In this document: positions 13,130 through 16,446 of the stretch, one piece after another | Layout: each line of letters begins with the position of its first letter | Position numbering within the stretch: the stretch's first letter is position 1 | From: an uncultured Prevotellaceae bacterium | GTDB taxonomy: Bacteria > Bacteroidota > Bacteroidia > Bacteroidales > Muribaculaceae | Assembly: GCA_900318335.1 (NCBI GenBank) | Contig: ONKF01000002.1 | Location: forward strand, 60,151 to 124,150 | Direction of reading: 5' to 3' | DNA length: 64,000 nucleotides | Notes under the pieces: generated by a model | What the model was told of the DNA's origin: nothing | The model's database searches: none | The model's input: only the letters and a program-made list of their open reading frames with translations | Made by a program: the position numbers and the translations under genes

Positions 13130-13800
13130 CAGGCGTTGCGGGTCGTCTGGTTAATAATGATGCCGTCACTCATGTGCAGCGTGCGGTCGGCCTGTGCGGC
13201 CAGGCCCTCGTCGTGGGTGACAATGATAAACGTCTGGCCCAACTCCTCGCGCAGTTCAAAGAACAGCCGATGCAGCTCCTGCTTGTTCTGGCTGTCGAGG
13301 CTGCCCGACGGCTCATCGGCAAGAATGACCTTGGGGCTGTTGATGAGCGCCCGTGCCACAGCCACACGTTGACACTCACCGCCACTCAGCTGTGACGGCT
13401 TGTGGTCGAGACGGTCGGCCAGGTGCATGCGCTCCAGCAGTCGACGGGCCCGGTCATAGGCATCGTTGCGGTTGTCACCGCCCAGCAATGCGGGGATGGC
13501 GACATTCTCGAGCATGGTGAACTCGGGCAGCAGCTGGTGGAACTGGAACACGAAGCCGATGTTGCGGTTCCTGAAGTGGGCCAGTTCCTTGTCGCGCAAG
13601 GTGAGCACGTTCTTGCCTTCATAGCGCACCTCGCCTTCCTGAGGAATGTCCAGGGTGCCGATGATTTGCAACAACGTGGTCTTGCCGGCCCCGCTGGGGC
13701 CCACAATCGAGACAATCTCGCCCTGGGCGATGTCGAGGTCCACGCCCCGCAGCACCTCCAGGTCGCCATATCGCTTGACTATGTTTCGAGCCTCAATCAT
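13129..13800 (-). CDS. LolD/MacB-type ABC transporter ATP-binding protein
   Basis: I choose the ATG at 13800 ([12 protein letters not shown]), giving 223 residues; the longer frame begins upstream of the -7 element at 13826-13833. Walker A is GPSGAGKT (34-41), the signature LSGGE is at 138-142, and Walker B is VILADEP (158-164). This subfamily serves LolCDE lipoprotein release and MacB-type efflux. No permease gene is adjacent, so the partner must be elsewhere. The stop codon overlaps the start of the downstream lipoprotein gene. Confidence 0.88.
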
Positions 13801-13825
13801 TGTCGATAACGTTTCTAATAATATG

Positions 13826-13833
13826 CAAAGGTA
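13826..13833 (-). promoter_or_regulatory. -7 element for the lolD-like run
   Basis: Read on the minus strand this is TACCTTTG, 25 bases before the chosen start codon. A TTTC at 13851-13854 could serve as a weak -33 element. It is back to back with the metK promoter. Confidence 0.6.
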
Positions 13834-13878
13834 ATAAAAAAACTGGGAACGAAACATGATAAACCGAAAAGTTTTATG

Positions 13879-13886
13879 TACCTTTG
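13879..13886 (+). promoter_or_regulatory. -7 element (TACCTTTG) for metK
   Basis: TACCTTTG predicts a transcript start near 13890, about 25 bases before the riboswitch aptamer and about 140 bases before metK. No clear -33 element is visible. Confidence 0.6.
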
Positions 13887-13914
13887 CAGCCACATTTGAG
13901 TTAACATGTATTAC

Positions 13915-13961
13915 AGTGGAATTTGGGCTGCTTGCAACCACTTGAAAAAATGCTAAAATGC
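13915..13961 (+). ncRNA. SAM-II-type riboswitch aptamer in the metK leader
   Basis: P1 is AGTGG (13915-13919) paired with CCACT (13938-13942). The loop carries an AATTT stretch and TTGCAA (13932-13937), and the 3' segment is TGCTAAAATGC (13951-13961). This order of P1, U-rich loop, TTGCA, P1', A-rich linker and GCTAAAA is the SAM-II (SAM_alpha) pseudoknot layout as I remember it. The pseudoknot pair that is CC/GG in the well-studied example appears here as GC (13929-13930) with GC (13960-13961), a compensated change. The downstream gene is SAM synthetase, the expected target. The assignment is by eye, not by a covariance-model search. Confidence 0.78.
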
Positions 13962-14029
13962 AATCATCAACAACTCTGTTATTGATTTTCTTTTAGCATT
14001 CATTTTCCACCAAAAATGAATGTTTTTTT
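13949..14029 (+). terminator. Antiterminator/terminator switch of the metK leader
   Basis: A terminator hairpin pairs CATTCATTTT (13997-14006) with AAAATGAATG (14013-14022) and is followed by seven Ts (14023-14029). A competing 10-bp helix pairs AATGCTAAAA (13949-13958), the 3' part of the aptamer, with TTTTAGCATT (13991-14000). The two helices share 13997-14000, so they exclude each other. Inferred logic: SAM binding traps GCTAAAA in the aptamer, frees the terminator arm and stops metK transcription. Confidence 0.8.
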
Positions 14030-15310
14030 ATGACAATGAACAGTAAGAACAATTATCTTTTCACGTCCGAGAGCGTGTCTGAAGGGCACCCGGACAAAGT
14101 CGCTGACCAGATCAGCGACGCCATTCTTGACAAGTTTCTCGCCTTCGACCCCCATGCCCATGTGGCATGCGAGACGCTCGTGACCACGGGCCAGGTCATC
14201 ATCGCCGGCGAGGTGACTACCAACGTCTATATCGACCTGCAGCGCACCGCGCGCGAGATGATTGAGAAAATCGGTTACACCCGCAGCGAATACCAGTTTG
14301 ACGCCAACTCGTGTGGCATCCTCAACAGCGTGCACGAGCAGAGCGGCGACATCGCCCAGGGTGTGGAGAAGGCCGAAGACAACAGCGACGATCAGGGCGC
14401 TGGCGACCAGGGCATGATGTTCGGTTATGCCTGCAATGAGACGCCCGACCTGATGCCTCTCACCCTCGACCTGGCTCATGCTCTCATGCGTGAGTTGGCC
14501 GACATCCGCCACAATCACTTTGAACTGATGCCATACCTGCGCCCCGACAGCAAGGCCCAGGTGACCGTCGAGTATGACGGCGACACACACCGCCCCGTGC
14601 ACATCCACACCATCGTGGTGAGCACACAGCATGACGACAATGTGGACCAGAAGCGTATCGCCCGCGATGTGCATGAGATTCTCATTCCCAGGACTCTGGC
14701 CCACTATAGCGACGAGATTAAGGCACTGTATGATGACAGGACCGAGGAGTTTGTCAATCCCACTGGCAAGTTTGTCATCGGCGGACCTCATGGCGATACG
14801 GGCCTCACGGGCCGCAAAATCATCGTGGACACCTATGGTGGCCGCGGTGCCCATGGTGGTGGTGCCTTCAGTGGCAAGGACCCCAGCAAGGTGGACCGCA
14901 GCGCTGCCTATGCCTGCCGCCACATTGCCAAGAACGTGGTGGCCGCTGGCATCGCCGACGAGGTGCTCGTGCAGGTAGCTTATGCCATCGGCCGTGCTAA
15001 ACCCGTCAGCTTCTATGTCAACACCTACGGTACCAGCCATGTGGACATGAGCGATGCCGAGATTGCTGCCGTTATCGAGGAGATGAGCGAGTTTGATATG
15101 CGCCCCAAGGCCATCATCGACCGCCTGAACCTGCTCCGTCCCATCTACACCGAGGCGGCAGCCTATGGCCACATGGGCCGCAAGTGCGAGAAGGTGGTGA
15201 AGCGCTATGAGTCGCTCTACAACGCGACAGCCGAACTCGAGGTCGAACTCTTCCCCTGGGAAAAACTCGACATGGTCGAGAAGCTCCGCACCGCCTTCCA
15301 CCTCAAGTGA
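14030..15310 (+). CDS. metK: S-adenosylmethionine synthetase
   Basis: The 426-residue product has the MetK signatures [31 protein letters not shown] (ATP-binding hexapeptide region) and [15 protein letters not shown] (phosphate loop). It makes SAM from methionine and ATP in the cytosol. The first in-frame ATG (14030) directly follows the terminator T-run; another ATG is at 14036, and either could start translation. No Shine-Dalgarno sequence is visible. Expression is probably controlled by the SAM-II-like leader. Confidence 0.97.
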
Positions 15311-15399: not shown

Positions 15400-16446
15400 T
15401 TACTTGGCCTTCATGGCTTCCTTGATCTTGGTCTCGAGTTCCTCGGCCAGTTCGGGATTATCGGCTACCATCTGTTTAGCGGCGTCGCGGCCTTGGCCGA
15501 GCTTGGTGCCCTCATAGGAGAACCAGGCCCCGCTCTTCTTGACGATGCCGAACTCGACGCCCAGGTCGATAATCTCGCCCACCTTGCTGATGCCCTCGCC
15601 GAAGCGGATTTCAAACTCGGTCTTGCGGAAGGGGGGAGCCACCTTGTTCTTGACGACTTTCACTCTCGTGAGGCTGCCGGTCACCTGATCGCCGTCCTTG
15701 ATCTGGCCGATGCGGCGGATGTCCAGACGCACACTGCTGTAGAACTTCAACGCGTTACCGCCAGTAGTGGTCTCGGGGTTGCCGAACATCACGCCCAACT
15801 TCTCGCGCAGCTGGTTGATGAAGATGCAGCACGTGTTGGTGCGGCTGATGGTGGCGGTGAGTTTCCTCAGGGCTTGGCTCATCAAGCGGGCCTGCAGACC
15901 CATCTTGCTCTCGCCCATCTCGCCCTCGATTTCGGCCTTGGGGGTCAGCGCGGCGACACTGTCGATGACGATGATGTCGATGGCGCTGCTGCGGATGAGC
16001 TGGTCGGCAATCTCCAGAGCCTGCTCACCGTTGTCGGGCTGGCTGATCCACAGGTTGTTCACGTCAACACCCAGCGACTCGGCATAGAAGCGGTCGAAGG
16101 CGTGCTCGGCGTCGATGATGGCGGCAATACCACCCATCTTCTGGGCCTCGGCGATGGCATGGATGGCCAGTGTGGTCTTACCCGACGACTCGGGACCGTA
16201 AATCTCGATGATGCGGCCACGGGGATAACCGCCCACGCCCAGGGCATTGTCCAGACCGATCGAGCCGGTGGGGATGACCTCGATGTCCTCGATGTGGTCG
16301 TCGCCCAGCTTCATGATCGACCCGCTGCCGAAGGTCTTGCCTATCTTATCCATTGCCACCTGCAGGGCTTTGAGCTTCTCGGGGGAAACCTCCTTGCGCT
16401 GCGGCTGGTTGTTCATTTCCTCTTGGTTAACGATTTCTTCTGCCAT
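15400..16446 (-). CDS. recA: Recombinase RecA
   Basis: The 348-residue product is a full-length RecA with Walker A GPESSGKT (84-91), the [19 protein letters not shown]1 region, and the [19 protein letters not shown]2 region. It catalyses strand exchange and SOS co-protease activity. No intein is present. A TATCTTTG -7 element lies about 50 bases upstream; I do not see an obvious LexA-type palindrome. Confidence 0.98.

Follow-up and report, generated by a model that had tools for sequence, protein, structure and literature searches.

The stretch of 64,000 nucleotides that was analysed as a whole (the window) carries metK, which encodes methionine adenosyltransferase, on the + strand at 14036..15310. 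The open reading frame has matches in plasmid records that are annotated as metK, and its start was taken from close relatives. The longest metK ORF begins at ATG 14030. The start region of the window reads ATGACAATGAACAG, that of close relatives mostly GGTACAATGAACAG or GTAACAATGAACAG, and an ATG six bases 5' of the conserved start occurs in only 2 of the 39 leaders of the clade around the window in a metK tree (the window itself and L258). ATG 14036 is thus taken as the conserved metK start. The gene is solitary, with a divergent gene upstream (13129 to about 13800) and a convergent gene downstream (15400-16446); from their translations, we take these to be an ABC-transporter ATPase and recA, respectively. 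The genome that contains the window (92.9% complete) gave one SAM-II match and one metK match, without a second copy of either. A plasmid origin was rejected, as 208 plasmid records match but none covers more than 80% of the query; the five matches listed are all to metK, with 64-65% identity across 56% of the query. A putative promoter -7 element, TACCTTTG, can be read from the sequence at 13879..13886 (+), 29 nt 5' of the GTGG of the aptamer, and follows the Bacteroidota consensus TAnnTTTG (PMC7366714; PMC6847099). Among distinct aptamers, 53 of 61 in the genus and 104 of 129 in the family have this consensus at most 60 nt ahead of P1.

The region between promoter and metK matches the Rfam family RF01726 (SAM-II long loop) at 13910..13966 (+) with 45.5 bits, where the gathering threshold is 44, and with an E-value of 2e-7 over a 701-bp stretch and 1.8e-5 over the whole window. 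An earlier note, made from the letters of the window, had proposed a SAM-II-type aptamer ahead of metK, which this match bears out. The family that it had named for the search, RF00521 (SAM_alpha), stayed below its cut-off here (23.9 bits vs. 36, E 0.004), and RF01726 passes instead. By covariance model the window carries a genuine SAM-II-class aptamer, whose sensing of SAM is itself predicted; metK is also the SAM or methionine biosynthesis gene that is looked for downstream of a SAM-II aptamer. The core (13915-13958) contains the P1 strands AGTGG (13915..13919, +) and CCACT (13938..13942, +), which pair with each other, the U-rich loop, TTGCAACC and GCTAAAA (13952-13958), with TTGCAA at 13932-13937, and the description of these elements in the earlier note was accurate. 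Three bases of the RF01726 consensus between P1 and the U-rich loop are missing from the window variant, which also carries one additional base. This short-spacer variant (13916-13929 in the window) also occurs in relatives, often with an extra loop G; some leaders that have it carry the U-tracted hairpin described below and others lack it. Genus members that have the variant score about 44-52 bits, and most other genus members near 60.

The source genus belongs to the Muribaculaceae, and RF01726 matches in 95 of 101 genomes of the genus and 144 of 149 genomes of the family, the window's own genome counted in both. One genus locus, L294, has exactly the sequence of part of a named Muribaculaceae record, and L034, from a different genus of the family, that of part of another. 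All matching loci were retrieved, and metK lies 3' of the aptamer in 95 of 95 genus loci and 143 of 144 family loci, the one exception (L136) being at a contig end and too short to show the gene. Of 80 named metK loci, 40 showed a SAM-II-like leader when searched with the core motif, nearly all from Bacteroidota by title, so that the association of SAM-II and metK is ordinary in the phylum; of a sample of 20 named loci, 19 were above the Rfam cut-off. Among 129 distinct family aptamers (L143 was unanchored and left out), the third pair of P1, counted from the loop, is U-A in 119, A-U in 6 and C-A in 4, and the fifth is G-C in 36, A-U in 35, U-A in 22, G-U in 14, U-G in 1 and unpaired in 21. 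Both pairs change on both sides across the family, and the covariation of P1 that the earlier note had put forward as a check is thus found. For the P2 pseudoknot, the loop reads GCTGC in 99 distinct family aptamers, and at least 89 of these, in the six commonest types, have a 3' pentamer ending in GC. With the loop GGCTGC, all 9 distinct genus aptamers have the GC one base nearer, and other loops are mostly without GC. The GC/GC pseudoknot pair of the earlier note is weakly supported, and there was no clear two-sided exchange across the family aptamers.

Between the aptamer and metK lies a strand, TTTTAGCATTCATTTTCCAC (13991..14010, +), that is common to two predicted structures, an antiterminator and a U-tracted hairpin, and that we call the switch strand. 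The first arm of the antiterminator joins the aptamer's own 3' segment, AATGCTAAAA (13949..13958, +), to TTTTAGCATT (13991-14000) over 10 bp, with a 32-nt loop between the aptamer segment and the switch strand. This helix is present in the sequence as the earlier note described it, but the note overlooked a second, covarying arm on the P1 5' strand, in which GTGGAA (13916..13921, +) would pair with TTCCAC (14005-14010) when P1 is open. In a constrained fold a further hairpin (13962..13987, +) tops the antiterminator arm; within the window clade one of its pairs has two-sided changes in 6 leaders, which supports the helix weakly, since 206 of 500 shuffles also yield such a pair.

In the genus, the switch strand has two complementary segments in the aptamer, ATGCTAAAA and GTGGAAAA, the latter being the P1 5' strand; the arm formed with this second segment is conserved and covaries in the genus. 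Its position 6 is A-U in 64 of 89 leaders, C-G in 12, U-A in 3, and G-C and G-U in 1 each, while the other 8 are unpaired there. The duplex of P1 5' strand and switch strand has an energy of -9.63 kcal/mol for cognate and -8.89 kcal/mol for swapped partners, and none of 2000 permutations, which ignore kinship between genomes, was as low (n = 89; 0/2000 within the window clade, n = 39, and 1/2000 for the others, n = 50). These 89 leaders are the 95 of the genus minus L275 and L308 (no anchor; no room) and L152, L256, L262 and L303 (no recognisable strand); in L256 and L262, GTGGGG in P1 is mirrored by CCCCAC downstream. For the first arm, 8 of 10 pairs are invariant among 37 distinct window-clade leaders, one has a one-sided change and one end pair is unpaired in 15, and its swap test was null (143 of 2000 permutations as low). 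Since 8 of the 10 pairs never vary, covariation is uninformative for this arm. The antiterminator covariation that the earlier note proposed to test for is present in the second arm but not in the first.

The U-tracted hairpin itself is located at 13997..14022 (+), where CATTCATTTT (13997-14006) pairs with AAAATGAATG (14013-14022) over 10 bp around the loop CCACCA, and is directly followed by a T7 tract (14023..14029, +). Its energy is -8.3 kcal/mol, or -9.9 kcal/mol with a closing G-U pair (13996-14023). The earlier note had recognized this hairpin and T-run, as well as the four bases that the hairpin shares with the antiterminator (CATT, 13997-14000). It had also let the T-run end at the metK start, which is right for ATG 14030, but the conserved ATG 14036 is 6 nt further. 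By computed pairing the two structures exclude each other in a manner tied to the aptamer, as the note had supposed, although partial coexistence is possible: both partly form when the window leader is folded without constraints to its energy minimum. Extra AUGs lie inside hairpin and tract (14016, 14020 and 14030, within 14016-14033), and the one at 14016 opens a five-codon frame (MNVFL) whose stop overlaps ATG 14030. Judged by eye, a short closed frame is kept there in 7 of 8 leaders with this type of hairpin, and that of L267 is in frame with metK. AUG has been described as underrepresented near starts in Bacteroidetes (PMC6847099).

A hairpin of 10-11 bp directly before a tract of U6-8 was found in 8 of 95 genus leaders, namely the window (L001), L254, L258, L260, L264, L267, L270 and L271, with energies of about -8.5 to -9.6 kcal/mol and 6 to 8 T in each of the eight. 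With the aptamer blocked, the computed probability of this hairpin is 0.96-0.98 in 8 of 8. For the free leader it is 0.11-0.62 at the moment the U-tract is complete, and a longer transcript reaching 30 nt past the start gives 0.00-0.71. Among the eight, 1 of 10 columns in the 3' half of the hairpin and 1 of 7 in the U-tract are variable; in the antiterminator loop these are 17 of 32 and in the linker 5 of 6. Being nearly invariant, the eight hairpins show no covariation of their own.

The stem of this hairpin is weak and AU-rich with only two G-C pairs, and for the latter reason a consensus terminator scan of 13700-14300, which requires at least three G-C pairs, was blank at the hairpin and gave no site in the region. 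A hairpin of -8 kcal/mol or lower that is followed by a T-rich tail occurs at 11 of 43 gene ends in the window; these hairpins span -10 to -25.7 kcal/mol and have a GC fraction of 0.42-0.64, and some of them seem to be one hairpin read on both strands. Their tails are poorer (at least 6 T in 1 of 43), and 4 of 43 regions before starts also reach -8. In the genus, a hairpin of -5 kcal/mol or lower with a T-tract was present in 20 of 94 leaders, compared to 8 of 94 when each was shuffled once by mononucleotides. Furthermore, the U-run pairs with an A-run inside a start-sequestering hairpin in several relatives, and it could thus be a relic or predate the terminator role. SAM-dependent termination at such a weak AU-rich stem is plausible from the modelled folds. 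The terminator proposed in the earlier note keeps its hairpin and U-tract, but its stem is weak and 8 of 95 genus leaders carry it, predicted start-codon sequestration being the common pattern in the genus.

The common platform of the genus does indeed seem, from modelled pairing, to be sequestration of the start codon and not termination. With a blocked aptamer, 73 of 81 genus leaders that are not of the window's type show predicted pairing of start codon and switch strand (P > 0.5), i.e. 31 of 31 other leaders of the window clade and 42 of 50 leaders outside it. The eight window-type leaders have this pairing in no case (P 0.00-0.02; window 0.00); for the OFF state of the window, the switch strand is predicted to sit in the U-tracted hairpin and not on the metK AUG. 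Outside the clade, CRUUUUUCC typically pairs with GGAAAAAUG. The U-run and the A-run (the A of AUG included) are of equal length in 36 of the 37 leaders, out of 50, in which they could be read; this shared length is five in 27, four in 8 and six in 1. When the aptamer was blocked in 54 leaders outside the clade, the start was paired at a mean of 0.93 (48 of 54 above 0.8). Shuffled leaders gave 0.62 and the free leader 0.51, and at 51 ORF starts in the window, 8 of which exceeded 0.8, the value was 0.50. The duplex of switch strand and start region is at -11.39 for cognate and -8.58 for swapped partners, with 0 of 2000 permutations as low (n = 89). In an alignment of 35 leaders outside the clade (A2), 97.1% of cells are paired, at most 62.3% when slid, and three pairs show two-sided changes, which was reached in 0 of 500 shuffles; since these leaders were picked for a predicted paired start and a short leader, the percentage is biased and the two-sided changes are less so.

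Inside the window clade the evidence for start sequestration appears weaker than outside. Here, the start is paired at 0.79 in 39 leaders, compared to 0.69 in shuffles and 0.72 in the free leader, and an on/off contrast in start pairing above 0.3 was found in 3 of 39 leaders, as opposed to 36 of 54 outside. Also, the start helix aligned within the clade (38 leaders, without L163) shows no two-sided change. Further start-region hairpins (CCAUAUA/UAUAUGG; CAAUUC/GAAUUG), seen in L067, L291, L310 and L283, keep the fold with different letters.

For a comparison of platforms, the eight window-type leaders, L152, L285 and L303 (other terminator-like hairpins) and L308 (where the aptamer abuts the start) were assigned by hand, and the remainder by fixed rules: the start is paired in 70, a shorter proximal hairpin has a T-rich tail in 7, and 6 are of other kinds. 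In a quick metK tree, all eight window-type leaders fall within a single group of 17 rows (unstarred, SH-aLRT 94), nested in the window clade of 39 (SH-aLRT 96, starred). Both this clade (22 of 39) and the remaining leaders (48 of 56) have start sequestration as their commonest class. The tree does not fix the root, and it cannot establish a single origin of the U-tracted type, for which it gives five changes, at least two of them forced by starred branches. The simplest reading is that start sequestration gave way to the U-tracted hairpin. We tentatively propose, at a little under even odds, that the usual SAM-II platform of the genus is free of Shine-Dalgarno sequences and lets one strand choose between the two strands of the aptamer and the metK start, and that the lineage of the window re-used this strand as an intrinsic terminator by way of dual-pairing intermediates. 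This would be a conversion from translational to transcriptional control inside one genus.

The family survey gives this a wider setting. The 143 family leaders, from 30 genera, were classed in a fixed order (near aptamer, hairpin, paired start, none), which gave 24 with the aptamer at most 20 nt from the start, 75 with a hairpin of -8 or lower and a T-tract, 27 with a paired start codon, 15 with none of these and 2 without a clear start. Platforms therefore differ between genera, while aptamer and metK remain constant. Among the 117 leaders with more than 20 nt, the 75 hairpins with T-tract compare to 19 in one mononucleotide shuffle each; when 6 of 7 T are required, the numbers are 48 of 117 and 3 of 117, so that many leaders of the family have a terminator-like platform. 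Hairpins of this kind that are stronger and carry a T-tract were seen ahead of metK in other genera and in a few genus members (L025, L048, L087, L091, L105, L152 and L303). In genera g13, g17, g20, g22 and g26, the aptamer ends at most 20 nt from the metK start in 23 of 23 measurable leaders (e.g. L077, L093, L095, L101, L115, L137 and L143), and direct occlusion is likely there.

For the window, we propose a SAM-sensing OFF switch of metK that acts by transcription attenuation, alone or with steric hindrance, and give it a probability of roughly 60%. At low SAM, AATGCTAAAA would hold TTTTAGCATT, and GTGGAA of the P1 5' strand would hold TTCCAC. With the switch strand held by aptamer bases the downstream hairpin cannot form, and RNA polymerase would continue into metK. 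At high SAM, the aptamer would fold, with GTGG taken up by P1 and GCTAAAA by the ligand pocket, and the freed switch strand would pair with AAAATGAATG to form the hairpin directly before seven U, so that transcription would stop 13 nt upstream of the metK start. As the hairpin lies near this start, it may also hinder ribosome entry. We infer this strand logic from pairing and comparison; the OFF logic, already drawn in the earlier note, is backed by the mutually exclusive antiterminator and U-tracted hairpin. The probability is not set higher because of the weak stem, the blank consensus scan, the shuffle background and the possibility that the U-run is a relic. The small overlap of the first arm with the hairpin, four bases only, also speaks against attenuation.

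The genus pattern suggests a different solution for the window, namely that metK is shut at the level of translation by sequestration of its start codon. The pairing of start and switch strand in all other window-clade leaders and most leaders outside the clade, the mean start pairing of 0.93 compared to 0.62 in shuffles, and the cognate duplex energies given above all point in this direction, as does the description of Bacteroidetes as lacking Shine-Dalgarno sequences, with initiation tuned partly by structure in the start region (PMC6847099). For the window's own metK start, however, no pairing with the switch strand is predicted, and pairing with any partner (0.68) equals that of shuffles (0.66). 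Start pairing is below 0.7 in 6 of the 8 window-type leaders, although L267 (0.96) and L271 (0.92) are exceptions, and sequestration does not need a U-tract directly after the stem. We therefore regard control by sequestration as unlikely for the window itself, at about one chance in four.

Slightly more probable, though still doubtful, is a dual platform between both modes, which would combine partial termination with steric hindrance of the ribosome and which overlaps with the attenuation reading. The seven relatives with a shorter proximal hairpin and T-rich tail (-4.9 to -7.7 kcal/mol) resemble such a state, as their start is also paired with P > 0.8 in four and 0.63 in three. Platforms have been called dual if the terminator is within 10 nt of the start (PMC2258182); in the window the gap is 7 nt to ATG 14030 but 13 nt to ATG 14036, so that the conserved start falls beyond this rule. 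A chance origin of hairpin and U-tract from the base composition of the leader is improbable. The leader is AU-rich, and its full-length fold is unremarkable (z -1.44, with 21 of 200 shuffles folding equally well), but the 10-11 bp hairpin before 6 to 8 T has been kept in eight species while its flanks vary. We thus prefer transcription attenuation, with or without steric hindrance, as the reading for the window.

The aptamer class and its tie to methionine genes are already known. SAM-II was listed in Bacteroides thetaiotaomicron in 2005, in a report that places putative terminators between P2 and the ORF for many SAM-II members (PMC1273637), and the long-loop family was listed as Bacteroidetes/marine in 2010 (PMC2864571). 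In 2022, work on the metZ and metA switches of Sinorhizobium meliloti predicted termination for the metZ SAM-II and reported more leader sRNA at high SAM (PMC9373788). A SAM-II attenuator in Bacteroidota is thus not as novel as the earlier note suggested, since SAM-II in this phylum and SAM-II with terminators had each been published. The window resembles RF01726 in sequence, P1, conserved core and phylum and lies above the family cut-off (PMC2864571), but with just 45.5 bits, and the 60-position model excludes the expression platform. With alphaproteobacterial RF00521 it shares the aptamer class and the putative terminators of many members (PMC1273637), but it lies below that cut-off, and the genes differ, as does mostly the phylum. 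The closest parallel in action is the S. meliloti metZ switch with its predicted SAM-dependent terminator behind the aptamer and its leader sRNA, but that concerns metZ in an alphaproteobacterium, where the companion metA switch works via a Shine-Dalgarno sequence (PMC9373788). As in dual attenuation platforms, the hairpin is near the start and could act at both levels; in those platforms the ribosome-binding site is in the 3' side of the terminator (PMC2258182), whereas the relatives of the window bury the AUG itself.

Among the open-access articles listed, judged by title and opening abstract, none was on SAM-II in Bacteroidetes or at metK, on start-codon sequestration or on Muribaculaceae riboswitches. 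In the accessible part of an article on whole-riboswitch covariation (PMC13273304), metK does not occur and SAM-II appears only within the title of a SAM-III reference. What looks new is therefore the anatomy of the platform and its apparent conversion within one genus. The comparison suggests a way of shutting off a gene by burial of its AUG in a phylum without Shine-Dalgarno sequences (PMC6847099). Closely spaced natural leaders such as these are suited to tests of how a translational platform changes into a transcriptional one while the sensor stays constant.
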